DNA from: a virus
IMG/VR virus record: IMGVR_UViG_3300002917_000005
Coordinates: 1 to 35,522 of that record
Reading direction: 5' to 3' (one strand)
DNA length: 35,522 bases
The notes below the pieces were generated by a model, which saw only the letters and a program-made list of their open reading frames with translations, was not told the DNA's origin and searched no databases. This document shows, one piece after another, positions 8,740 through 25,046 of this stretch (position 1 is the stretch's first letter; every line of letters starts with the position of its first letter). Position numbers and translations under genes: made by a program.

Positions 8740-9216
8740 TTAACGGGTACGGATGGTCCCCGCAGCCCCGCAATTATAGTCAGCCGAAATCGGGAAACGG
8801 TAGCAATCGATAGAGCCGCCGCCGTCGGGCTGAATAGTTAGAATTTGCGGCGGCTCCGGGGCTGGCGTCGGCGCGGCCGGCACGGGCACATAAACAGGGT
8901 ATGGCATGGGGACTGGCACCACTCTGGCTGCGGCCGGGGGCGGAGGCGGGAAAAGACAGGCGTTCGCACGGCGATAATTTGGTGACTGCGGCAGGAGATC
9001 GTTGTTGGTGAGGCCGCAGGCGGCGAGCTGTCGCTCGCCATCGCAGCTCGACATGATCGCCCGCAGCTGATCCTGGGTGCAGGGCGGCATGTTGGGCCCG
9101 CAAAGCCCCTGGATGACGAGCCCGACATCGCGGCAGACCGTCATCTCGATTGCGGTCGCGGCGGGCGAGAGCAGGGCGAGAAGCCCAGCGTAGAGAGTGA
9201 CGGCGGCGGTGCGCAT
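8740..9216 (-). CDS. Secreted Cys- and Pro-rich protein
   Basis: 158 aa from ATG 9216 with a strong GGAGGA ribosome site. It has a clear signal peptide (MRTAAVTLYAGLLALLSPA, then ATA). The mature part has many Cys (VCRDVGLVIQGLCGPNMPPC, SSCDGERQLAACGL), suggesting disulfides. A Pro-rich segment follows (VVPVPMPYPVYVPVP), and the C-terminus has two further Cys. It would be periplasmic or surface located. It is the moron gene closest to the XRE-type regulator, transcribed in the same direction 52 bases downstream of it. Function unknown. Confidence 0.65.
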   Translation of the reverse strand: MRTAAVTLYAGLLALLSPAATAIEMTVCRDVGLVIQGLCGPNMPPCTQDQLRAIMSSCDGERQLAACGLTNNDLLPQSPNYRRANACLFPPPPPAAARVVPVPMPYPVYVPVPAAPTPAPEPPQILTIQPDGGGSIDCYRFPISADYNCGAAGTIRTR

Positions 9217-9267
9217 ACTGTCCTCCCTAGTTGCGAAATTGAGGATAGCGCACCGGCAGCGGCATAT

Positions 9268-9510
9268 CTAGCGACGTCTGATTACAACCATCTTGCGCTT
9301 CTCCGTTTTTTCGATGAGATCACAGAAGCGGCTGACCATCGGCGAGATGGACCGCGTGCCCTGTTCCCACTGTCGCACCGCGTAGATGCTCACGCCTAGG
9401 CGATCAGCCGCCTCCGACTGCAGCCAGCCCATACGCTGGCGCCACGCGCGAAATTGTTTCCCCGTTCCAATGACTTCCGCCACGCGGCCCCCCAGTTTGT
9501 GCCACCACAA
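9268..9510 (-). CDS. XRE-family HTH regulator (candidate lysogeny switch protein)
   Basis: 80 aa from TTG 9510; a GTG at 9480 is a possible shorter start. Residues about 20-66 form a Cro/CI-type helix-turn-helix (QFRAWRQRMGWLQSEAADRL, then GVSIYAVRQWEQGTRSISP), with the recognition helix near SIYAVRQWE. It lacks a dimerisation or peptidase domain, so it is Cro-sized rather than CI-sized. It faces a 58-aa + gene across a region with three GTCATTGAC repeats, which are the obvious candidate operators. It is the best candidate in the window for the lysis-lysogeny regulator. That role is inferred from family and context. Confidence 0.75.
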   Translation of the reverse strand: MWWHKLGGRVAEVIGTGKQFRAWRQRMGWLQSEAADRLGVSIYAVRQWEQGTRSISPMVSRFCDLIEKTEKRKMVVIRRR

Positions 9511-9589
9511 TTCACCCTGCTTGATGATGGATTGTTACGCAATACGGAGGGGTGGGGCTGGCCGCGCGGTTTGGGCGTGGCCCTGCTGT

Positions 9590-9647
9590 GTCATTGACCC
9601 GGTGAGTCATTGACACAGTAGGTCATTGACCTATACGATTTTCGTAA
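9590..9647 (+). promoter_or_regulatory. Promoter with three 16-bp-spaced operator repeats
   Basis: GTCATTGAC occurs at 9590-9598, 9606-9614 and 9622-9630. Each is a near-perfect palindrome (GTCA-T-TGAC) and they repeat every 16 bases. A sigma70-like promoter is embedded in them: TTGACA at 9610-9615, 16 bases, then TATACG at 9632-9637. TACGA-TTT-TCGTA follows at 9634-9646, the element shared with 5093-5107. The arrangement would let a repressor at the third repeat, in the spacer, block the 58-aa gene. The XRE protein encoded divergently is the likely ligand. Confidence 0.7.
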
Positions 9648-9686
9648 GGTTGCTCGGCTCAACTCTTTTCAGGGGAGTTCACGCGC

Positions 9687-9863
9687 ATGGCCAGCGAACG
9701 CGTTTTTCGGTCGTCAGTCATCTCCACGACCGATATCAAGATCGCCGACGAAATTTTAGACGCCGCGATTCACCGCCGTCGGACCCTGGAGATCGACGAG
9801 CGGGAATTCCTGCACCGCTATGCGAGCTGGCTCCTTGAGCGGGAGGAGCAATTCGAGAGCTAG
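9687..9863 (+). CDS. Small protein (58 aa) behind the operator region
   Basis: ATG 9687 with AGGGGAG 8-14 bases upstream, ending at TAG 9863. The product starts MASERVFRSSVISTTDIKIA and is rich in charged residues, with a predicted long helix (EFLHRYASWLLEREEQFES). It is the only gene reading rightward from the operator-bearing promoter at 9590-9637, so it may be an early or anti-repressor-type protein. No known family recognised. Sequence after its stop appears to be insertion-sequence remnant, so a longer operon here may have been lost. Confidence 0.6.
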   Translation: MASERVFRSSVISTTDIKIADEILDAAIHRRRTLEIDEREFLHRYASWLLEREEQFES

Positions 9864-9929
9864 GGGAAGCGGGAGCCGGCCGCCCGGTGCGAGCCCGCGC
9901 GACGCCGCCGGCATAAGCGGGTCAAGGCT

Positions 9930-10289
9930 TCATCAACCTGAGAAATGCCTGCGCGGCACCGATGATCCAATCCTGCTCGGCGCGGATTTGACGGCGGAGT
10001 TTGTGACGCTCCGCTTGCGGTTGATCAAGATTGCGGCCCGCGTGGTCGAGGGCACCGCCCGCATCCGCGTCTTAGCTGGACGCTTTGCCGCCTCGGGACC
10101 ATGAACCCCGGGGCGTTGTCGCCCTGCCGAGCCCATTCCGCAACTTCCAACCACGACACAATCAGAACTGAAATCGGCGTCAAACCCGGCGCCACAAACC
10201 AACGCGCTTGCAGCGCTATGAGGTGCCGGCGCGCGTCACATTGCGCTCCCGTGGTGAATAGATGCGGCTAAGTGAATAGATGCGGCTAA
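9930..10289 (+). pseudogene. IS1380-family-like transposase C-terminal remnant and element end
   Basis: An open frame ending at TGA 10104 finishes with FVTLRLRLIKIAARVVEGTA then RIRVLAGRFAASGP. This resembles the conserved C-terminus of IS1380-type (DDE group 1) transposases, with the stretch between RIRV and LAGR apparently deleted. The DDE catalytic domain is absent. The roughly 150 bases after the stop, ending in GTGAATAGATGCGGCTAAG, look like the element's right end, and that end is present twice in tandem. The remnant lies just left of the att site. The family call is from memory of the motif. Confidence 0.5.
10254..10289 (+). repeat. 18-bp tandem duplication left of att
   Basis: GTGAATAGATGCGGCTAA occurs twice without a gap (10254-10271 and 10272-10289). 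It may be a duplicated insertion-sequence end or a pair of recombinase/Xis arm sites about 145 bases from the att core. The exact identity of the copies suggests recent duplication or selection. Confidence 0.75.
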
Positions 10290-10432
10290 GCTGCCTCTAT
10301 TCTAGCTCTAACCGCGTCGACATCCAGATCGGTCCCTCTCGTGGTTTGTCGCTTGTACCGGACCACAAAAACGCGCCCCGTTTATCAAACCTAAGACCCA
10401 AAATACAGGTCTAAATCATTGATAAATAACGC

Positions 10433-10479
10433 GTCTGGGGGACTGGGGGTCGCGGGTTCAAATCCCGCCGCTCCGACCA
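10433..10479 (+). other. attP: Phage attachment site core: 3' half of tRNA-Pro(GGG)
   Basis: Bases 10433-10479 fold as the 3' part of a tRNA. They read as anticodon loop CTGGGGG (anticodon GGG), 3' anticodon stem ACTGG, variable loop GGGTC, T-stem GCGGG / loop TTCAAAT / CCCGC, acceptor CGCTCCG, discriminator A and CCA. A C1-G72 tRNA ending CCGACCA is characteristic of tRNA-Pro. Upstream of 10433 pairing with the 5' anticodon stem is lost, and no 5' half is present, so this is not a gene. The integrase starts 113 bases downstream. A single copy in a window that closes on itself points to attP. Confidence 0.8.
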
Positions 10480-10526
10480 CTTGAAAAACCTCACAAATTC
10501 TGCGATATCCTCGGTCTCGAAAGAGC

Positions 10527-10581
10527 GATTTTTTCCAGTTTCTTTCCGGAAAAAACCGGTTTCTTTCCAGATTTTTTCCAG
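10527..10581 (+). repeat. Paired direct repeats in the integrase leader
   Basis: GATTTTTTCCAG at 10527-10538 is repeated at 10570-10581. Between them TTTCTTTCC occurs at 10539-10547 and 10560-10568, around the palindrome CCGGAAAAAACCGG-like segment. The set lies between the att core and the integrase start and could be arm-type integrase sites or an operator over the int promoter. Confidence 0.6.
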
Positions 10582-10592
10582 GGGAGATTCGC

Positions 10593-12128
10593 ATGGCCGA
10601 TGGTGGTCTTCAGCGGGCGCAAATCAAGCCGCTCCAGCTCGACGGCGTGAAGGTCATCACCTCGCGCTACAAGGGCGCGGTGAAGTTCTACTACCGGCAC
10701 GTCGCGACCAAGACGCAGCTCGGCAGCAGCGACGATCATGAGGCGGTGCAGATCGCACACGACGCTCTGGCCAAGCAGATGCCGGTCATCGACCGCGGCC
10801 GGGCGGGCACCTTCGATCAGATCGTGCGCGACTACTATGCCAGCAGCCAGTTCCTGGAGCGCTGCGACGAGAGCACGCGCGGGTATCATCGCGAGCACCT
10901 GGAGCCGTTGCGCGAGCACTTCGGCCAAACCGGCTGGCATGACCTGACGGCCAAGGCGCTGGAGGACTATCTCAAGACGCTGATCCCCCTGCCGGACACC
11001 CGCTACAAGCGGCTGAAGGCGATGCGCCTGGTCCTGAACTGGGCGGTCGAGCGGCCCAAGGAATACGGGCTGACCTTCAGCGTCGCCGATCAGGTGTTCG
11101 TTCCGAAGCCGCCGCCGCGCACGGCGCGGTGGACGGTGGCGAAGCGCAAGACGATGTACGACGGGCTGCCGGAAGCCGAGCGTCCGGCGCTCTACAAGTC
11201 GGTGGCGGAGCGCAACCGCCAGAAAAAGCATCTCCGCGACGCGCTGCGCGACCTGGGCGTCATCGGCGACGACAAGCCCCGCATCGATTACGATATGACG
11301 ATCGAGGAGCTGGACGCCCTGTACCGCAGCAAATGCGCCGAACTCGGACACGCGCAGCAGAAGATTTTCGACGGGCTGACCCTTCACCAGCGGGCCAAGC
11401 TGTATCCGGCCGCGCTGTTCACCGACGAGGACCGCCGCCGGGCCGACCAGCGCGGCCTCTACATGCGCATCGCGAGCCTCCTGGCCTACTACCTGGCCCA
11501 GCGCCGGGGCGATCTTCTCGACCTGGCGCGCTCGCAAAATATCGCCCTCGCGGCCGGCGGGGCGCCCGACACGTACCTGTTCCAGGCGAATGACATGCGC
11601 GGCCGGCAATGGGTGTTCGCGCATATCGTGCAGAACAAAACCGGCGCCGTCGTCGAGATCCCGCTGCACCCGAAGCTCGAGGCGGCGCTGCGTGAGCATG
11701 TCTGGCGCGGCGACTATCTCCTGTCGTCGCCGGCCGGCGATCACTGGGACGAGCACAATTTCTCGCAGTGCTGGCGAGAGGAATGTGAGCTGCTCGGCAT
11801 CGAGGACGTGACCCTCCACGACCTGCGCCGTACCATCCGCAGCGATCTCGCCGAGGCCGCCTGCACAGACGAGGAAATCTGCGCCATCACGGGGCACAAA
11901 ATCGCCAGCATCAACAACAACGACATGGCTGACATCTACACGGTCCGAAACCGCGAGATGGCCATTAACGCGCTCGAAAAGCTGATCGCCTGGGAGGCGA
12001 AGGTCGAGGAGTTCGCGCTGCGGCGCGAAGCCCTGGGAATCACCGGCGATGAAGTGGGTGACGTCGATTTTCTGCGCCAGCCCAAGTTGCTGCCGGCGCC
12101 GAAGAAGAAAAAGCGCGGCACCGCCTAG
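10593..12128 (+). CDS. int: Tyrosine-type site-specific integrase
   Basis: 511 aa from ATG 10593, preceded by GGGGAG. Catalytic residues of the lambda-Int family are visible: Arg304 in LAQRRGDLLDL, His409 and Arg412 in LHDLRRT, His435 in ITGHK and the nucleophile Tyr449 in DIYTVRN. Residues about 70-150 form the SAM-like core-binding domain (TFDQIVRDYYASSQFLERCD). Between this and the catalytic core is an unusually long charged region of about 120 residues (175-290). The enzyme should recombine the tRNA-Pro att core just upstream with the host gene. A convergent Xis-like gene overlaps its stop by four bases. Confidence 0.93.
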   Translation: MADGGLQRAQIKPLQLDGVKVITSRYKGAVKFYYRHVATKTQLGSSDDHEAVQIAHDALAKQMPVIDRGRAGTFDQIVRDYYASSQFLERCDESTRGYHREHLEPLREHFGQTGWHDLTAKALEDYLKTLIPLPDTRYKRLKAMRLVLNWAVERPKEYGLTFSVADQVFVPKPPPRTARWTVAKRKTMYDGLPEAERPALYKSVAERNRQKKHLRDALRDLGVIGDDKPRIDYDMTIEELDALYRSKCAELGHAQQKIFDGLTLHQRAKLYPAALFTDEDRRRADQRGLYMRIASLLAYYLAQRRGDLLDLARSQNIALAAGGAPDTYLFQANDMRGRQWVFAHIVQNKTGAVVEIPLHPKLEAALREHVWRGDYLLSSPAGDHWDEHNFSQCWREECELLGIEDVTLHDLRRTIRSDLAEAACTDEEICAITGHKIASINNNDMADIYTVRNREMAINALEKLIAWEAKVEEFALRREALGITGDEVGDVDFLRQPKLLPAPKKKKRGTA

Positions 12129-12427
12129 GACACCAGCGGCGGCAGGCCCTTTTTCGCCAGCCGTCGGTTCAACCTCGCGATGACTTCCCGGCGCTTGTCC
12201 AAGGCGTTGGGAGCTGCAGCGGGTGCCTCCGGTTGCGTGTGGCCGAAGATCCGGCGGTAGGCGTTCCGCAGATCGCCCAGCAGAAACTGTGTCGGTGCGC
12301 GGTTGGAACCGCCGAATCGCTTCTCGGTCACATGCGGCCTGATATGCCGGTTAAACTGCGCCCGCGTCATCTTGCAGAACGCGCAGGCTTCCGCCAGCGT
12401 CAGCGGCGTGACGTCGTCGTCGCTCAA
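12125..12427 (-). CDS. Excisionase-like HTH protein
   Basis: 100 aa from TTG 12427, which overlaps the upstream stop (TTGA) and has a strong GGAAGGAAG ribosome site. Residues 8-60 (TLAEACAFCKMTRAQFNRHI, then GDLRNAYRRIFG) look like a winged or MerR/Xis-type helix-turn-helix with TLAEA at the first helix. The tail is Ala/Pro-rich and ends in a basic helix (EVIARLNRRLAKKG). Its position, convergent with and touching the integrase, suits an excisionase or recombination directionality factor. The role is inferred; a general regulator is possible. Confidence 0.55.
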   Translation of the reverse strand: MSDDDVTPLTLAEACAFCKMTRAQFNRHIRPHVTEKRFGGSNRAPTQFLLGDLRNAYRRIFGHTQPEAPAAAPNALDKRREVIARLNRRLAKKGLPPLVS

Positions 12428-16210: not shown

Positions 16211-16444
16211 TTAGGCGCAGCGCGCCCGGACCTTCTCCAGGGCCTTTGCGCACGCGACCTGCTTGCGCTCCAAAAGCTTGCGGATGTCCTGCCACACGCC
16301 GGGAGACGGCTCGACGGTGCCGGCGAACCAGCGCCTTAGCGTCCGGTCGTTGACGTCCAATTGACGCGCCAGCTCGGACTGCCACTGCGGCCCGAAGAGC
16401 GCAAGGCCCGCGATCTCGAGCAGGGTGGGGGTTTGTTCGGCCAT
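16211..16444 (-). CDS. Small XRE-type HTH protein
   Basis: 77 aa from ATG 16444; the frame extends to 16531 without a better start. Residues 8-58 contain a Cro/CI-like helix-turn-helix (LLEIAGLALFGPQWQSELAR, then QLDVNDRTLRRWFAGTVEPS) with the recognition helix at NDRTLRRWF. The remainder is a basic helix (KLLERKQVACAKALEKVRAR). It is the final gene of the minus-strand block but lies beyond the terminator at 16533-16562, so it probably has its own transcription. It could be a Cro-like partner to the XRE protein at 9268-9510. Confidence 0.65.
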   Translation of the reverse strand: MAEQTPTLLEIAGLALFGPQWQSELARQLDVNDRTLRRWFAGTVEPSPGVWQDIRKLLERKQVACAKALEKVRARCA

Positions 16445-16532
16445 GCCCGTAACGTAGGGCACCTCGCCGGCCGGGGCAATCGGCGCCTGCAACCCTTGCG
16501 GCGGTTCTCTTCGGATCACGTGGCGCCTCACG

Positions 16533-16562
16533 AAAAAAAGGGGGCGGCCCTGCGACCGCCCC
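16533..16562 (-). terminator. Rho-independent terminator of the minus-strand operon
   Basis: On the minus strand GGGGCGG (16562-16556) pairs with CCGCCCC (16547-16541) around an 8-base loop, followed by seven T (16539-16533). It stands directly after the zinc-ribbon gene (stop at 16577) and marks the end of the ArdC operon. Confidence 0.85.
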
Positions 16563-16576
16563 GCGTGGTGTAGAAA

Positions 16577-17005
16577 TCAGCAGCCGGGATGTTTCGCGAA
16601 GCAATCGGCGAGGGCCGAGCGCTTGTTGCGGAACGGCCCGAACGGCCCCTTGCCGCGCCCGGCGAGGTTACCCCAGCGGTAGCCGCCCTTGGCTTCGGAG
16701 ACGTAGACGCACCCCGGAAGGTTGCTGATCTTGCTTTCCAGCTCGTCGACGCCTGTCAAGCGGTGCTCTTCGGGCGGCTCGATCTCCGGCAGTGACGGCG
16801 CGGACGGATCAATGATCAGCTCGACGAGCGACGCCTCGCCCTGGCAATGCTGACAATAGCCCTGATCCTGGACCGCGCTCAGTTCCCACGCCTGAGTCTC
16901 GATATTCCAGGATGCGGTTGCGTCGCGGCGGACGTCATCGCTTCCGCAATTGCTGCATACGATGGTCCGGAGTCTGGCGACGTGCTTCGGCTTACGATTG
17001 GTCAT
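16577..17005 (-). CDS. Zinc-ribbon protein of the ArdC operon
   Basis: 142 aa from ATG 17005, whose GGAGG lies in the loop of a leader hairpin. The N-terminal half holds a zinc ribbon, Cys17-x2-Cys20 and Cys51-x2-Cys54 (IVCSNCGSDDVRRDA, WELSAVQDQGYCQHC). Small zinc-ribbon proteins of this type are common in alphaproteobacterial plasmids and phages. The C-terminus has an aromatic Gly/Lys segment (SEAKGGYRWGNLAGRGKGPF) ending in Cys. It is the last gene before the operon terminator. The shared leader implies co-regulation with ArdC. Function unknown. Confidence 0.65.
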   Translation of the reverse strand: MTNRKPKHVARLRTIVCSNCGSDDVRRDATASWNIETQAWELSAVQDQGYCQHCQGEASLVELIIDPSAPSLPEIEPPEEHRLTGVDELESKISNLPGCVYVSEAKGGYRWGNLAGRGKGPFGPFRNKRSALADCFAKHPGC

Positions 17006-17060
17006 GATGGAACGGGCCTCCTAGCCCTGAGATGAGCCGAGCCTGATTGCCCGGCTTGAT
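17006..17060 (-). promoter_or_regulatory. Structured RNA leader, copy A
   Basis: Reading leftward: hairpin AGCCGGGC-AATCAG-GCTCGGCT (17056-17035), a short spacer, then GGGC-TAGGAG-GCCC (17027-17014), with the Shine-Dalgarno purines in the loop, followed by the zinc-ribbon ATG. One of four copies in the operon that share CGGGCA..AGGYCCG and GGGC..GGAGGCCC but differ in the lower stem with pairing kept. Confidence 0.75.
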
Positions 17061-17075
17061 GCGTGGCGCACCCTC

Positions 17076-17101
17076 GGACGGGCGCACGGTGGCGCCCGTC
17101 C
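17076..17101 (-). other. Intergenic hairpin after the 141-aa gene
   Basis: A perfect 10-bp stem (GGACGGGCGC / GCGCCCGTCC) with a 6-base loop begins ten bases after the TGA of the upstream gene. There is no T-run after it. It is the counterpart of hairpins at 17612-17638 and 18610-18641. A processing, stabilising or attenuating element is more likely than a terminator. Confidence 0.7.
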
Positions 17102-17110
17102 TATGCTGCG

Positions 17111-17536
17111 TCATGCGCAACGTGACCAAGCGGCGTCGGCGGCGATATGCCACCGCGCCCGATCGTAGCCGGGCAGTTCATCGACGGGGCGACGCCAGCC
17201 CGGGAACGCGTTCAGCGCGTGAATCTGAATGGCTGCCGTGATCGCGTAGGCCGTGCTGGTCTCGTATCCGGGGTGCTCGCACGATTGATACGCGAGGCAT
17301 TCGGCGGCTTTGATGATTTGCACGGCGGAGAAGCGTTGGAACGTGATCGCGCCACACAGCTCGAACGTGCCGAGTTGCGTCCCATGCCGGGCCGCGTACA
17401 GGTGATTGACGGATTTTAGATTCTCGGAGAGAAATTCCGAGCCGAGGAGTTCAACCGGGATTTTTGAAATCCCGTGCCGATAGGCGTAGACCGCAAGCGC
17501 GGTGATATGCGAGTTGCCGCAAACGAAAGCCGACAT
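17111..17536 (-). CDS. Hypothetical protein of the ArdC operon, 141 aa
   Basis: ATG 17536 is chosen because the ribosome site lies in the leader hairpin loop just upstream; the open frame extends much further only as a shadow of ArdC. The protein begins MSAFVCGNSHITALAVYAYR and contains SEFLSENLKSVNHLYAARHG, a helical Ala-rich middle (AVQIIKAAECLAYQSCEHPG) and a C-terminal WRRPVDELPGYDRARWHIAA. It is predicted soluble with no enzymatic motif visible. Its position between ArdC and the zinc-ribbon gene, with the same leader, suggests an early accessory or anti-defence role. That is inference. Confidence 0.65.
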   Translation of the reverse strand: MSAFVCGNSHITALAVYAYRHGISKIPVELLGSEFLSENLKSVNHLYAARHGTQLGTFELCGAITFQRFSAVQIIKAAECLAYQSCEHPGYETSTAYAITAAIQIHALNAFPGWRRPVDELPGYDRARWHIAADAAWSRCA

Positions 17537-17595
17537 AGGTTCCGGGCCTCCTGCCCTGGGGGTGGTGGCGGGCCTGAGTGCCCGCCACCGGTACG
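17537..17595 (-). promoter_or_regulatory. Structured RNA leader, copy B
   Basis: Hairpin GGTGGCGGGC-ACTCAG-GCCCGCCACC (17589-17564), then GGGC-AGGAG-GCCC (17556-17544) with the Shine-Dalgarno sequence as its loop, then the ATG of the 141-aa gene. The lower stem is GGTGG/CCACC here, against AGC/GCT in copy A: different bases, pairing preserved. Confidence 0.78.
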
Positions 17596-17611
17596 CCTTG
17601 GCGTATCGTTC

Positions 17612-17638
17612 GGAGCGGCGGCCCTTGCGCGCCGCTCC
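17612..17638 (-). other. Intergenic hairpin after ardC
   Basis: A perfect 9-bp stem (GGAGCGGCG / CGCCGCTCC) with a 9-base loop, starting about 12 bases after the ArdC stop codon. No T-run follows. It occupies the same position as the hairpins at 17076-17101 and 18610-18641. Confidence 0.7.
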
Positions 17639-17649
17639 TAGGCGATACG

Positions 17650-18534
17650 TCAAGCCGCGATGGATACCGGCTCGGCGGAGAACTTGCCGAGGAAGTCCGC
17701 CGCGTCGCTCGCCTTGCTCGCGGCGGTAAAGATCGCCTTGCGATCGCCTTTCATGATCTTGAGCCAGGATGCGAGGTATTGCGCGTGATCCTGGCGCGGG
17801 TCCGCCGAGATACCGAGGGAGGCACAAAGGAACGCCGCTCCCAGCTCCGCAACCAGCTCCTCCGCCGCGTAGGCGTCATCGCCGAACCGCTTGCCGAATT
17901 GGCGCGCGCACCGCCGCTCGTGACCGGTCCAATGAACCAGCTCATGGAGGAGGGTTCCGTAAGCCGCCTCCGTCGGCGTGCTGGTCGGGCTGCCGGTGAA
18001 TTGCGCGAAGTCCGGCATGGCGATCATGTCCGGGCCCGGGGCATAGAACGCGCGGTCCGACCCGTAGCGGACGCTGGCGCCCGTGGCCGACACGAATTGC
18101 TCGGCACGGGTGAGACGTTCGGCAAGGGCAGGCATCGCCGGCCGGTCTACCGTGTAGCCGTCGACCTGACACGCGTTGAACACGTGCGAGTATTTGAGAA
18201 ACCGAATCTGTTGCTCGGGCGCGCTGGGGTCCGATCGGTCTTTGACGGCTGTTGTGCCGTAGTAGACGATCATGGTGCCTTTCTCGCCGCGCCGCACCTG
18301 CGCCCCGTGCGCGGCCCATTGCTTGTAAGAAGCCCATTGGTTCCCGCTGAAGCCCTGGACAGCGGCGGAGTTCCACAGCAGCAAGACATTGACCCCGCGA
18401 TAGCGCGCGCTCGTGGTCGCGTTGAATGGCATGCCCTCCGCGCGCGCCGCGGCCCATGGCTTCAGCCATGAGCCGGGGTTGGCTTCAATCTGCGATACGA
18501 TTTTGTCCGTGATCTGCCGATAGAGATCGGTCAT
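17650..18534 (-). CDS. ardC: ArdC-type anti-restriction protein (ssDNA-binding plus zincin)
   Basis: 294 aa from ATG 18534. The N-terminal domain (residues 3-125) is the ArdC ssDNA-binding type, with DLYRQITDKIVSQIE, NPGSWLKPW, YRGVNVLLLW, QWASYKQW and RRGEKGTMIVYY in the usual order. The C-terminal domain carries a zinc metallopeptidase motif, His197-Glu198-x2-His201 in LLHELVHWTGH, with a downstream EELVAELGAAFL helix for the third ligand. ArdC proteins of conjugative plasmids protect incoming DNA from restriction. On a phage this would help early infection or entry into lysogeny. Expression is probably controlled by leader C, with its SD in a hairpin. Both motifs are complete. Confidence 0.88.
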   Translation of the reverse strand: MTDLYRQITDKIVSQIEANPGSWLKPWAAARAEGMPFNATTSARYRGVNVLLLWNSAAVQGFSGNQWASYKQWAAHGAQVRRGEKGTMIVYYGTTAVKDRSDPSAPEQQIRFLKYSHVFNACQVDGYTVDRPAMPALAERLTRAEQFVSATGASVRYGSDRAFYAPGPDMIAMPDFAQFTGSPTSTPTEAAYGTLLHELVHWTGHERRCARQFGKRFGDDAYAAEELVAELGAAFLCASLGISADPRQDHAQYLASWLKIMKGDRKAIFTAASKASDAADFLGKFSAEPVSIAA

Positions 18535-18590
18535 TTACAACGGGCCTCCAGTGCCCAGGGGTGACACCGGACCTAGTTGCCCGGTGTGGC
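18535..18590 (-). promoter_or_regulatory. Structured RNA leader, copy C (ardC)
   Basis: Hairpin ACACCGGGC-AACTA-GGTCCGGTGT (18587-18564) with one G-T pair, then GGGC-ACTGGAG-GCCC (18556-18542) containing the Shine-Dalgarno bases, then the ArdC ATG. The lower stem ACACC/GGTGT differs from copies A, B and D while the CGGGCA..AGGYCCG core is kept. Confidence 0.78.
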
Positions 18591-18609
18591 GCGCGTTGGC
18601 GCAACCCTC

Positions 18610-18641
18610 GGAGACCCGCGAAACCTAGCGCGCGGGCCTCC
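18610..18641 (-). other. Intergenic hairpin after the 97-aa gene
   Basis: An 11-bp stem (GGAGGCCCGCG / CGCGGGTCTCC, one G-T pair) with a 10-base loop, beginning ten bases after the stop codon of the 97-aa gene. It is the longest of three hairpins at equivalent positions in this operon. No T-run follows. Confidence 0.7.
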
Positions 18642-18651
18642 TAAGCTTGCG

Positions 18652-18945
18652 TCAACCGAGGCAATGAACGACGTAATCGAGCACGTCGCCACCGCGCGCC
18701 GTTCCGCCGTAAGTGTCATACGACCATGTGAAGCGGGGGTCGGCGCCCTCGCCGTTGTCATCGCGCGCCACGTCGACAACCCGGAAGCCCTGACTGGCGA
18801 GACCCGAGACGATATTGCGGCAAGCCGTGGCGTCGGTCGCGTCAAGGCCCGAGTAATCATTATTGACCAACGCCGCCGCCCAACACGCGGGAAGCGTCAT
18901 GGTGTCGACGATGAGGAGCGGCGCTGAATTGGGGTTCGGGAACAT
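18652..18945 (-). CDS. Hypothetical protein of the ArdC operon, 97 aa
   Basis: ATG 18945 with AAAGGGG seven to thirteen bases upstream, the site overlapping the end of the previous gene; this decides the start over a longer frame to 19089. The product MFPNPNSAPLLIVDTMTLPA continues with CWAAALVNNDYSGLD, RNIVSGLASQGFRVVDVARD and an aromatic acidic end. This is a small alpha/beta-like protein with no motif I recognise. It is coupled to the 80-aa gene and precedes ardC. Unlike its neighbours it lacks the two-hairpin leader, consistent with coupling. Confidence 0.65.
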   Translation of the reverse strand: MFPNPNSAPLLIVDTMTLPACWAAALVNNDYSGLDATDATACRNIVSGLASQGFRVVDVARDDNGEGADPRFTWSYDTYGGTARGGDVLDYVVHCLG

Positions 18946-18956
18946 TGTGACCCCTT

Positions 18957-19199
18957 TCAAGCGCACGCGCGCCAATCGGCATTCGCGGTGCTGATCACCG
19001 CGAACCCGAGTTGTTCGGCAATCGAGAGCGTGCGAGCCGTGAGCGTCTTTGTTCCCGCCAGCTCCGCGAACAGGTTCGCGTTGATGCAAAGCGGATACGC
19101 CTTGAGGGCGCCGTAAACGTTGCGAACCTCGACGGATACGGTACGCGTCGCCTTGGGGACGGCGCGGAGCGTGGCGTCATGGGGGATAAGGTTATTCAT
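18957..19199 (-). CDS. First gene of the ArdC operon, 80 aa
   Basis: ATG 19199 behind leader D. The product begins MNNLIPHDATLRAVPKATRT, continues VSVEVRNVYGALKAYPLCIN and NANLFAELAGTKTLTARTLS, and ends near DWRACA. It reads as a short beta hairpin region followed by helices. No named family recognised. It is first to be transcribed from the promoter at 19257-19285, with the next gene's ribosome site at its stop codon. Confidence 0.6.
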   Translation of the reverse strand: MNNLIPHDATLRAVPKATRTVSVEVRNVYGALKAYPLCINANLFAELAGTKTLTARTLSIAEQLGFAVISTANADWRACA

Positions 19200-19250
19200 C
19201 GGTTCGGGCCTCCTGCCCTGTAAGCGCCTCGGACCTAATGCCCGTGGCGT
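19200..19250 (-). promoter_or_regulatory. Structured RNA leader, copy D (first gene)
   Basis: The stem CGCC-A-CGG (19249-19242) pairs with CCG-A-GGCG (19232-19225) around a GCATTAGGT-type loop, with one internal mismatch. GGGC-AGGAG-GCCC (19218-19206) with the SD in its loop follows, then the ATG. The predicted transcription start lies at about 19250, so this element forms the very 5' end of the operon mRNA. Confidence 0.7.
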
Positions 19251-19285
19251 GCCCTAATACTAGGGCATGGCTGTACCGGGTTCAA
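19251..19285 (-). promoter_or_regulatory. Operon promoter with palindromic -10 region
   Basis: On the minus strand TTGAAC (19285-19280), 17 bases, then TAGTAT (19262-19257). The -10 lies inside a perfect inverted repeat GCCCTA-ATAC-TAGGGC (19251-19266), a likely repressor site. The direction fits the ArdC operon. The small terminase is divergent. Confidence 0.6.
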
Positions 19286-19332
19286 GCGAAAAGCGGCACA
19301 CGTCACATTTTCTAATTCGCGATGGGGAGGTC

Positions 19333-19809
19333 ATGACGAAGGCTGCCCTAGGCGAGGTTGACGACGACGACACAGAGGTAATCGTCATCGACGGCTTAGG
19401 CCCGATGACGGCGCGACAGAAGCGCTTTGCGGAGGCTTACCACGCGCACGGCAACGGCACGCGCGCGGCCCGGGAAGCGGGGTACGCGGGGGATGACGAG
19501 ACACTAGCGGTTGCGGCGTCGCGGCTGATAAGGAACGTTAAGGTTCGCCGGTACCTTTTGCGGCTTGGCAAAAACGACCAGCTGGACCGTGACGAGATTC
19601 GGAAGTTGCTGGAGCGGGAAGCGTTCACTGGGGACCACGCGGGCGCCCGTGTGCGGGCCGGTGAACTGCTGGGGAAGGCCCTGGGACTCTTCAACGATGA
19701 TTTCACCCTGACCATCAATCGCACGAGTGATGACGAGATCGTCAAGGCGCTGGCTGGCGATGACCCGGTGTTGCAGGCGGGCCTCCTCCGCAAGCTTCGG
19801 GGCGAGTAG
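19333..19809 (+). CDS. terS: Terminase small subunit
   Basis: 158 aa from ATG 19333 with GGGGAGG upstream, preferred over ATG 19267, which lies in the operator of the divergent operon. Residues 25-80 contain the terminase small subunit pattern: MTARQKRFAEAYHAHGNGTR, AAREAGYAGDDETLAVAASR, then LIRNVKVRRYLLRL. This helix-turn-helix domain recognises phage DNA for packaging. The N-terminus is very acidic (GEVDDDDTEVIVID) and the C-terminal half would mediate oligomerisation. The large subunit is 3.8 kb downstream, separated by small genes and a fibre/glycosyltransferase pair, which is unusual spacing. Confidence 0.82.
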   Translation: MTKAALGEVDDDDTEVIVIDGLGPMTARQKRFAEAYHAHGNGTRAAREAGYAGDDETLAVAASRLIRNVKVRRYLLRLGKNDQLDRDEIRKLLEREAFTGDHAGARVRAGELLGKALGLFNDDFTLTINRTSDDEIVKALAGDDPVLQAGLLRKLRGE

Positions 19810-20016: not shown

Positions 20017-20349
20017 ATGGACGCAGCTCGTCTCCGCCTTCGCTCGGTGACGTTCAAGGCGACCGGTCAGCGGCTTGAGGTGCTGCGGCGAAAACACGGC
20101 AGCGCGACCTACGGGGATCTGCGCCGCGGGTTCGCCGGGTTGCTGGAGTGCGTCGACCCGATGGGTGTTGCCGGCTTCGCGGCGGTGGTCTGGCAGCGCG
20201 ACGGTGCTTACTGGACAACACTCCGCGTGACCGACGGCTCATCTGTTCCCGGCGGCCTTGTGCCGTCGTTCGTGAAGGACGTGCTGATGCGCCGCCTTGG
20301 CGAAGACGACACGCTCGACATTTTACGCGGGCCGTCGCCGTCGGCCTGA
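20017..20349 (+). CDS. Hypothetical protein, 110 aa
   Basis: ATG 20017 (a TTG at 19990 would add nine residues); the ribosome site is weak (ACGGGG). The product MDAARLRLRSVTFKATGQRL continues with a Gly/aromatic centre (GVAGFAAVVWQRDGAYWTTL) and ends MRRLGEDDTLDILRGPSPSA. It is a compact alpha/beta protein with good GC3 bias. It lies between the small terminase and a 38-aa membrane protein. No family recognised. Confidence 0.55.
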   Translation: MDAARLRLRSVTFKATGQRLEVLRRKHGSATYGDLRRGFAGLLECVDPMGVAGFAAVVWQRDGAYWTTLRVTDGSSVPGGLVPSFVKDVLMRRLGEDDTLDILRGPSPSA

Positions 20350-20501
20350 GTGCCCGGGAGATCGCAGGTCAACCGGTAGCCGGGGCTTGAACACCGTTTC
20401 ACGTCAAACGTTTTCTGCTCTCGCCGCCTCATTTCTCTGATCGCATTCACGTTTGGCCGCCCCGTTTATTTCGCGGTGGCGCCACGGGAAGGAACTGCCC
20501 A

Positions 20502-23332: not shown

Positions 23333-23628
23333 TGACCAAGCGCCTTCTGTTGTCAGCCGCAGCCGCAAACGGCAGCGGCCCGGCGCAGTCGCGCCCGAGA
23401 TCCACGGTTCGGCAGAACAAGCTGCTGTGGAGCAAGACGGGCACCGGGACTGCGACGCTTAACCTGATCGACCTGGATTCCGGCGCTGCACTCGTGACGG
23501 CGATCAGCATCTTGGCTGGTGCGCAGTCCGGCGTTGTTGATTTCTTTGCAAGCGACGGCGTACAGGCGAGCCTGACGAGCGTCTCGGGCACCGTGAGCGT
23601 CAATGCTTGGCTTGATGGCTGGGATTGA
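23332..23628 (+). CDS. Small beta-rich protein, 98 aa
   Basis: ATG 23332 overlaps the upstream TAA, and its TGA (23626-23628) overlaps the terminase ATG. The N-terminal 30 residues are basic. The rest is beta-type (NLIDLDSGAALVTAISILAG, SVSGTVSVNAWLDGWD), like a small decoration or jelly-roll protein. Tight coupling to the large terminase suggests head assembly. Function not recognised. Confidence 0.6.
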   Translation: MTKRLLLSAAAANGSGPAQSRPRSTVRQNKLLWSKTGTGTATLNLIDLDSGAALVTAISILAGAQSGVVDFFASDGVQASLTSVSGTVSVNAWLDGWD

Positions 23629-25046
23629 TGCAGATCACGCGCGAGCAGGCGCTCGCGGTTCTTCAGCAGCGCCTGGCTCAGCGCGCGCTTCTGCGATATC
23701 GGCCTTACCCGTGGCAGGCCCGGTTTCATGCCGAGGGAGCGAATAAGTCCCAGCGGATGCTCCGGGCCGCCAACCGGGTGGGCAAGACGCTCTGTGCCGG
23801 GAGTGAGTACGCCTATCACCTGACCGGCCGCTATCCCGAGTGGTGGATCGGCCGGCGCTTCGAGAAGCACACGCTGCAATGGACCGGCTCGCCGACCAAC
23901 GAGACGAGCCGCGACATCGTGCAGAAGGAGCTGCTGGGCGATCCGGCCGAAAGCTTCACCGGCCGGGTGCCCGGCGAGCTGGTCGTCGGCAAGCTCAACT
24001 ACCGGCAGGCGGGCGTGTCGAACGTCGTCGACAGCTTCCGCGTCCGTCACAAGGACGGCGGCCTGTCGACCTGCGTGCTCAAGACCTACGAGCAGGGCTG
24101 GCGCAAGTGGCAGGGCACGAACATCGATGTCGCCTGGCTCGATGAGGAGCCGGAAGACTTTCAGATTTTCACGGAGTCGCTCACCCGCATCCTGACGGCG
24201 AGAGGGCTGCTCATCGTGACATTCACGCCGCTGCTCGGCGAGACCGAGCTGGTCCGGCACTTCGAGCGGCCCGAGCTGGCCGAGATGGTGTCGCTGGTGA
24301 ATGCGACATGGGCCGACGCGCCGCATCTTGACGAAGCGATGAAGGCCCAGCTTCTCGCGTCGTATCCCGATTGGGAGCGCGACGCCCGCACCAAGGGAAT
24401 TCCGATTCTGGGGTCCGGCCGCGTGTTCCCGGTCGACGAAGAGACGATCAAATGCGACCCGTTCCAGGTCCCGGCGTTCTACGCCCAGATCGCGGGTCTC
24501 GATTTCGGCGTCGACCATCCGACCGCCTATGTGGTGCTGGCCTGGGATCGCGACCGCGACATCGTCTACGTCGTCGACGCCTACCGGCAGGGCGGCAAGG
24601 ACGCGCTCTATCACGCGCAGTCGATCAGGCAGCGCGCCGCCTGGGTGCCGGTCTCATGGCCGCATGACGGGCTCGAGCGCGACAAGGGCTCGGGCGAGCC
24701 GCTGAAGAACATCTACCTGGGCCATGGCGTGGCGATGCTCCCCGAGCACGCGACCTACGGCGACGACCGCGGCAACGCGGTCGAGCCCGGCATCGAGGAG
24801 ATGCTGGAGCGGATGCGCACCGGCCGCTTCAAGGTCTTTCGGCATCTCGCCGAATGGTTCGAGGAGTTCCGCTCGTATCACCGCGAGGACGGCAAGGTCG
24901 TGAAGCTCCGCGACGACCTGATGGCCGCCACGCGCTACGCCCTGATGATGAAGCGATACGGGCTCAGTTACGCCGAGGCCAACCGTCCGCTGCGGCCGGC
25001 GGGGCCGCCACCAAGAAAGCTCACGACATGGCGCAAGCAGGCATAA
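23628..25046 (+). CDS. terL: Terminase large subunit (ATPase/nuclease)
   Basis: 472 aa from ATG 23628, which overlaps the upstream stop. Walker A is AANRVGKT (residues 47-54), Walker B IDVAWLDEEP (166-175, Asp172-Glu173), and the coupling motif is near VTFTPLLGE (198-206). The C-terminal RNase H-like nuclease begins IAGLDFGVDHPTAYVVLAWD with Asp292, followed by Asp318 in YVVDAYRQ. This is the DNA-packaging motor that acts at the portal. The domain order and length fit podovirus (T7/P22-class) terminases. The gene overlaps the next by 19 bases. The small subunit is upstream at 19333-19809. Confidence 0.93.
   Translation: MQITREQALAVLQQRLAQRALLRYRPYPWQARFHAEGANKSQRMLRAANRVGKTLCAGSEYAYHLTGRYPEWWIGRRFEKHTLQWTGSPTNETSRDIVQKELLGDPAESFTGRVPGELVVGKLNYRQAGVSNVVDSFRVRHKDGGLSTCVLKTYEQGWRKWQGTNIDVAWLDEEPEDFQIFTESLTRILTARGLLIVTFTPLLGETELVRHFERPELAEMVSLVNATWADAPHLDEAMKAQLLASYPDWERDARTKGIPILGSGRVFPVDEETIKCDPFQVPAFYAQIAGLDFGVDHPTAYVVLAWDRDRDIVYVVDAYRQGGKDALYHAQSIRQRAAWVPVSWPHDGLERDKGSGEPLKNIYLGHGVAMLPEHATYGDDRGNAVEPGIEEMLERMRTGRFKVFRHLAEWFEEFRSYHREDGKVVKLRDDLMAATRYALMMKRYGLSYAEANRPLRPAGPPPRKLTTWRKQA

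Follow-up and report, generated by a model that had tools for sequence, protein, structure and literature searches.

Birkholz and colleagues reportedly showed in 2024 (Nature 631:670, cited in PMC12456014) that Aca2 represses both transcription, at a DNA operator, and translation, at stem-loops in the 5' untranslated region (UTR). MS2-type coat-protein operators are short hairpins with a bulged A, through which a phage protein controls a start site. The radC RNA motif (RF01754) and the STAXI motif (RF01728), the latter a repeated pseudoknot, are structured elements that in proteobacteria are reported to precede genes for anti-restriction or DNA manipulation (for STAXI, PMC2864571, which also lists radC). 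Here we describe a two-hairpin RNA leader that recurs in a minus-strand operon of IMG/VR record IMGVR_UViG_3300002917_000005 (positions 1 to 35,522; 35,522 nucleotides (nt), hereafter the window), which is a temperate phage.

The leader constitutes a widespread family of RNAs that Rfam does not contain, and comparison of its copies indicates that its structure is under selection. Its regulator is very probably a helix-turn-helix (HTH) protein of 77 amino acids (aa) encoded in the window, and the leaders are likely to be translational operators in an Aca2-type circuit of autorepression at two levels.

The two-hairpin leader and its relatives

Leaders composed of a first and a second hairpin (HP1 and HP2) precede the genes starting at 19199, 18534, 17536 and 17005. 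Bit scores are those of a covariance model (CM):

19206-19249, minus strand: leader 1; 39.2 bits; HP1 19225-19249, HP2 19206-19218
18542-18587, minus strand: leader 2; 45.2 bits; HP1 18564-18587, HP2 18542-18556
17544-17589, minus strand: leader 3; 59.3 bits, z -3.2; HP1 17564-17589 (10 base pairs), HP2 17544-17556
17014-17056, minus strand: leader 4; 52.5 bits, z -3.1; HP1 17035-17056, HP2 17014-17027

In leader 1, HP1 reads CGCC-A-CGGGC attag GTCCG-A-GGCG and HP2 reads GGGC aggag GCCC, with the Shine-Dalgarno sequence in the loop. The hairpin core GGGCA-N1-6-AGGYYCG occurs seven times in the window, always inside leaders, against 0.32 expected (0 of 100 shuffles), and the Shine-Dalgarno hairpin GGGC-N-GGAGGCCCG four times against 0.11, which bears out the recurring element of the original prediction. 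Its lower stems are, as claimed there, unlike yet paired (AGCC/GGCT, GGTGG/CCACC, ACAC/GTGT and CGCC/GGCG, the last with one A.A mismatch); the HP1 loop spacer measures 2-3 nt rather than the 1-3 nt claimed, and the copy at 17005 reads AGGCTCG, with a G-U pair. A fifth CM match (20319-20360, 15.4 bits) does not rise above chance, lacks a Shine-Dalgarno sequence and was rejected; with model R1, true members score 16-63 bits and chance pattern matches up to about 19 bits.

The predicted minimum free energy (MFE) fold of the leaders at 19199 (19197-19246) and 18534 (18532-18592), minus strand, is a cross-paired form, in which the 5' arm of HP1 pairs with the 3' arm of HP2 and the 3' arm of HP1 with the 5' arm of HP2, to the exclusion of the two hairpins. 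Since these leaders are predicted to favour the alternative fold, folding of single sequences is insufficient to establish the structure; comparative data do establish it. A total of 77 leader copies, with compensatory changes in both stems, were gathered from phage contigs and two genome bins. Scans of viral contigs for Shine-Dalgarno hairpins led to unrelated phages sharing the order promoter, operator, HP1, HP2 and start codon, while a pattern scan of genome contigs returned mostly chance matches in coding sequence, with true leaders in a Rhizobium bin and a Rhodospirillales bin. Most phages carry a single copy; relative L330 has two and one operon of L061 has eight. These eight (8819-12176, minus strand) have very unlike stems, including one UUCG loop and one degenerate copy (11709-11762); some 1.4 kb downstream, that strand also carries the HTH gene.

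On an alignment of 60 leaders that was fitted to the CM, and is hence biased toward it, 83.7% of cells are paired and 8 of 12 pairs show two-sided changes; none of 500 shuffles reached any of five structure measures, and a slide of one column cuts pairing to 59% or 39%. Because of this bias, the swapping of arms between leaders was added as a test free of fitting. The real mean stem score lay above all 2000 permutations for HP2, where the swap point was the Shine-Dalgarno core and thus independent of pairing, and above all 1000 for HP1, where it was the parsed loop centre. Pairing is therefore kept across relatives rather than left to vary freely, in agreement with the selected structure first proposed from the four copies.

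Conserved 5'-UTR stem-loops over the ribosome binding site are present in the leader family. HP2 stems include GGGC/GCCC, TGGC/GCCA, GGGT/ACCC, CGGC/GCCG, GGCC/GGCC, AGCC/GGCT, TTGG/CCAA, GGTT/AACC and AATC/GATT, a table that was chosen for pairing and is informative only in its variety. In most relatives a bulged A in HP1 lies between a freely covarying lower stem and an upper stem GGGC/GCCC or GGGG/CCCC.

The leader family is unmatched in Rfam, whether in the window, in the leader region or in 42 loci of the wider HTH/leader family, where matches were confined to tRNA, suhB and C4. A cmscan of 17000-19420 up to E 10 left both radC (RF01754) and STAXI (RF01728) unmatched and returned three chance matches only; the kinship with the radC motif that had been suggested is therefore not supported. 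One viral contig (L069) carries a suhB/mmgR small RNA at 8892-8970 (RF00519, 45.6 bits), about 2.8 kb from its leader operon. In L293, a C4 antisense RNA at 1425-1511 (RF01695, 55 bits) lies some 1.5 kb upstream of a remote relative of the HTH, which has an AT-rich Shine-Dalgarno hairpin. No leader was found with the ArdC homologues of viral contigs, so that the leader does not follow ardC, and blastn of phages and plasmids retrieved ArdC only.

The helix-turn-helix protein, the operator and their co-variation with the leader

The elements that link the leaders to a candidate regulator are the following:

16211-16444, minus strand: HTH protein of 77 aa resembling Aca2; candidate regulator of both operators and leaders
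19280-19285, minus strand: -35 box TTGAAC of the leader-operon promoter, read from sequence; relatives carry TTGACA or TTGCAA at the same place
19257-19262, minus strand: -10 box TAGTAT, 17 nt from the -35 box and within the operator; the layout matches relatives
19250-19267, no strand: operator, an 18-bp perfect palindrome TGCCCTAGTATTAGGGCA spanning the -10 box of the leader operon
16444-16461, no strand: second operator copy TGCCCTACGTTACGGGCA at the HTH gene, with -10 TACGTT

Leader 1 begins directly after the promoter TTGAAC-N17-TAGTAT. In relatives, an HTH homologue of about 70 aa is usually the last gene of the leader operon; in the window the gene lies directly downstream, past a terminator (16533-16562) that separates it from the operon, and has its own operator. 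This copy, TGCCCTACGTTACGGGCA, is the only other one in the window and overlaps both the -10 box and the start codon of the HTH gene, its last base being the A of the ATG, with which the predicted +1 coincides. The HTH mRNA is probably leaderless, and control of the HTH gene would therefore be at the DNA level only.

Among leader-bearing records searched in full, 20 of 21 contain an HTH homologue, the exception being a doubtful match. A search with the protein alone returned 59 loci; at E <= 0.3 a leader was matched in 35 of these, and divergent leaders are present in at least nine others (L278, L260, L262, L263, L265, L268, L276, L277 and L280). When promoter and operator alone were used, 46 matches were obtained: all 20 with an HTH gene have a leader, two are truncated copies with a leader, and 24 have neither. 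The shared trans-acting regulator postulated from the four leaders thus finds a specific candidate in the HTH protein, to which both this linkage and the co-variation described below point. The HTH occurs in 1 of 342 genomes of the order of L123 (Roseovarius) and in 17 of 76 of the order of the Rhizobium bin, many of these distant. On plasmids, HTH relatives are found on 685 records, chiefly of Klebsiella and Acinetobacter, and are mostly annotated as hypothetical.

When a profile of the HTH family was compared with solved structures, four Aca2 chains ranked first (E 2e-5 to 3e-4). The predicted structure (predicted local distance difference test, pLDDT, 93.8) gave Aca2 7vjq the highest query template modelling (TM) score, 0.70, among the 50 Foldseek matches listed, with an E-value of about 1, a measure that does not discriminate among HTH proteins.

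Most loci combine a recognition helix R-T-x-R-R-W, a half-site TAGGACA (TAGGGCA in the window) and stems GGGC/GCCC. In L260, L262, L276 and L280, the helix reads R-T-M-Q-R-W and the half-site TACGxCA (one half in L262 is TGCGTCA), with CGGC as the 5' arm of either hairpin. Q helix, TACG operator and CGGC RNA thus occur together in four of four such loci versus no true case elsewhere among loci with readable operators (Fisher 1e-5, kinship ignored; the single G/C exception in the table is a misparse of L044). A prospective search with the C-type operator alone gave 79 matches, ten with an HTH gene nearby and five of these new (L387, L402, L428, L434 and L395). All five have the Q helix; CGG-type stems occur in both hairpins of four, whereas L395 has a single CGCC/GGCG hairpin. 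The remaining 69 comprise 67 without HTH gene or leader and two truncated copies, of L434 and L280, with a leader. That the Q type arose only once is rejected by the approximately unbiased (AU) test (p 0.009; trait columns masked, 67-column tree). There is a weaker correlate in RYW or RQW helices with GGAAC/GGAAG half-sites (L265, L283), L304 (RYW) having GGCAA, and Aca2 itself has Q and Y at the aligned helix positions and the half-site GCGAACA in ZF40. The joint change of helix, operator and hairpins therefore fits one protein reading both DNA and RNA; an RNA regulator unrelated to the HTH would not give it.

A proposed dual-level circuit and its rivals

In the circuit that we propose from these sequences, a strong promoter would be active early and yield a single mRNA encoding five small anti-host proteins, ArdC among them. 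The HTH protein, as it accumulates, would occupy the palindrome over the -10 box and turn transcription off, and would also bind the leader hairpins of existing mRNA, each stem (GGGC/GCCC) presenting one half-site that resembles the half-site of the DNA operator (AGGRCA). Ribosome entry at each Shine-Dalgarno sequence would be blocked because it is carried by HP2. The sequences themselves establish the structure and conservation of the leader, the operators in common, the linkage to the HTH gene and the co-variation; operator binding, RNA binding, translational repression and their timing are predictions of this scheme.

Spacing suggests why one operon should have several leaders. Gaps of 105, 113 and 117 nt separate the genes with internal leaders from the preceding stop, as against 14 nt for the leaderless gene; in relatives with a single leader, most downstream genes begin between -11 and +12 nt relative to the stop before them, with wider distances in L039 and L069 (32-61 nt). 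Four leaders would be needed because 105-117 nt of structured RNA between cistrons prevents translational coupling, and leader number would track the count of translation units that cannot be coupled. A broader reading seems to us evenly poised between right and wrong: the leader loci would form an undescribed large phage family, in which one half-site is recognized by Aca2-like HTH proteins both in double-stranded DNA and in the stems of RNA through a two-residue code (R,R for DNA GGAC and RNA GGGC; Q,R for CGAC and CGGC), each hairpin offering one half-site to a dimer and the leader being copied before each uncoupled cistron.

Several observations weigh against these proposals. The co-variation could reflect few independent changes, the tree of a 70-residue HTH being poorly resolved. 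HP2 (TGGC/GCCA, GGGT/ACCC) and HP1 (GGGA/TCCC) vary in several lineages with no change of operator, and mimicry of the operator by the RNA is therefore not strict. Resemblance to Aca2 is distant and concerns mainly the HTH helices and the helix that follows: the window protein shows about 21% identity in the Foldseek alignment and is 40 residues shorter (77 versus 116 aa), and Pfam PF08965 (Aca2_YdiL) gives weak matches in 7 of 14 HTH members. In addition, the polarity of the match between RNA and DNA is unlike that of ZF40, whose RNA hairpin repeats the left half of the operator first.

The HTH protein may instead be a transcriptional autorepressor only, the leaders being constitutive elements for translation or mRNA stability (a protective 5' hairpin and a hairpin displaying the Shine-Dalgarno loop) that move with the operon cassette. 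Such transfer would by itself account for the HTH linkage, and HP1 begins near the predicted +1 and is in many cases just a highly stable stem, capped in L061 by a UUCG loop. We nevertheless regard this explanation as unlikely, as it leaves unexplained both the change from GGGC to CGGC in the two stems along with operator and recognition helix and, in the HP1 of relatives, the bulged A and the conserved sequence of the upper stem.

CsrA sites present GGA within a hairpin loop, as does the HP2 loop AGGAG, so a host CsrA/RsmA-type RNA-binding protein or a small RNA could act on the Shine-Dalgarno hairpins, the HTH being irrelevant to the RNA. This is very improbable, given that the loops AGAGA, AAAG and AGAAAG (L331, L354, L362, L340, L260) have no GGA, that small RNA and leader families of Rfam are unmatched and that leader presence tracks the phage HTH gene. 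A ligand-free switch, in which exclusive pairing of HP1 and HP2 arms hides or frees the Shine-Dalgarno sequence, for example co-transcriptionally or by temperature, would suit the GGGC/GCCC of both hairpins and the cross-paired MFE folds at 19199 and 18534, but is hardly credible as the stems of many relatives cannot cross-pair (HP2 TTGG/CCAA, AGCC/GGCT, AATC/GATT, GGTT/AACC).

The operon and its comparison with known systems

The leader operon runs on the minus strand from 19199 to 16577 and is embedded among the following features:

18957-19199, minus strand: gene 1, 80 aa, first cistron with leader, no known family
18652-18942, minus strand: gene 2, 96 aa, without leader
17650-18534, minus strand: ardC (gene 3), ArdC N-terminal domain and zincin-like metallopeptidase, anti-restriction protein
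17111-17536, minus strand: gene 4, 141 aa, no known family
16577-17005, minus strand: gene 5, 142 aa, cysteine-rich N-terminus (CxxC...CxxC), last cistron with leader
16533-16562, minus strand: intrinsic terminator GGGGCGG..CCGCCCC + T7, read from sequence, ending the leader operon
18598-18654, minus strand: intercistronic hairpin starting at the gene 2 stop codon; UGACG..UAGGA-stem-UCCGA
17597-17652, minus strand: intercistronic hairpin starting at the ardC stop codon; spacer z -4.7
17064-17113, minus strand: intercistronic hairpin starting at the gene 4 stop codon
10593-12128, strand not given: integrase
23625-25046, strand not given: large terminase

One operon with a leader for every gene had been announced; there are indeed four leaders, for five cistrons, that at 18942 having none. 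The ardC product carries both hallmarks of its family, the ArdC N-terminal domain (PF08401, ArdcN, 5e-35) and the C-terminal metallopeptidase (PF18818, 6e-49), and matches phrog_7245 (1e-90). The other four cistrons gave no informative family match, and the label 'anti-restriction operon' therefore leans on ardC alone. The gene 5 product has a weak zinc-finger resemblance, of the DNA polymerase zinc-finger type (phrog_32296, 1e-7). PADLOC gave no hits, and megablast found no near relative among named phages.

The three internal leaders have no operator, and each is preceded by one of the intercistronic hairpins, built as UGACG-(outer stem)-UAGGA-(variable 9-11 bp stem)-UCCGA with no U-tract; none stands before the first leader. 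They may be processing sites or insulators. Directly upstream of the integrase gene, a stretch at 10431-10479 (plus strand) resembles the 3' end of transfer-messenger RNA (RF00023, 19 bits, E 6e-4, below gathering) and ends in CCA; it is a probable attachment site.

The CM and the operator pattern flag anti-defence operons that are rich in unknown small proteins, and can thereby serve in the search for new anti-CRISPR or anti-restriction genes.

The leader shares with the radC and STAXI motifs its place as a structured RNA upstream of anti-restriction-type genes, and differs from the repeated pseudoknot of STAXI. With MS2-type operators it shares a short hairpin with a bulged A and a proposed control of the start site by a phage protein; here the candidate regulator is an HTH protein, and the bulged A is missing from most copies in the window.

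The closest parallel is Aca2 of Pectobacterium phage ZF40, a small phage HTH autorepressor that also ends an anti-defence operon. Its promoter has an 18-bp palindrome as well, TGTTCGC-GATT-GCGAACA, with the same 7-4-7 layout, and the acrIF8-aca2 leader has an RNA inverted repeat at the translation start. The operator and RNA sequences of ZF40 differ from those of the leader family, and the leader CM has no match on ZF40. Its hairpin is at the start codon, whereas two hairpins are found here, with the Shine-Dalgarno sequence in the loop of the second; an operon may here have four leaders (window) or as many as eight (L061), and the targets include ardC rather than a known acr gene. Control may work like that of Aca2, and the HTH protein is a candidate member of the Aca2 family proper. 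Only one case of an HTH protein repressing through both DNA and RNA has been studied structurally. The leader loci add to it a distinct family, rich in sequences and found in phages of alphaproteobacteria and others; as its protein, operator and RNA hairpins have visibly changed together, the reading of DNA and RNA by an HTH can be tested through swaps of residues and bases.

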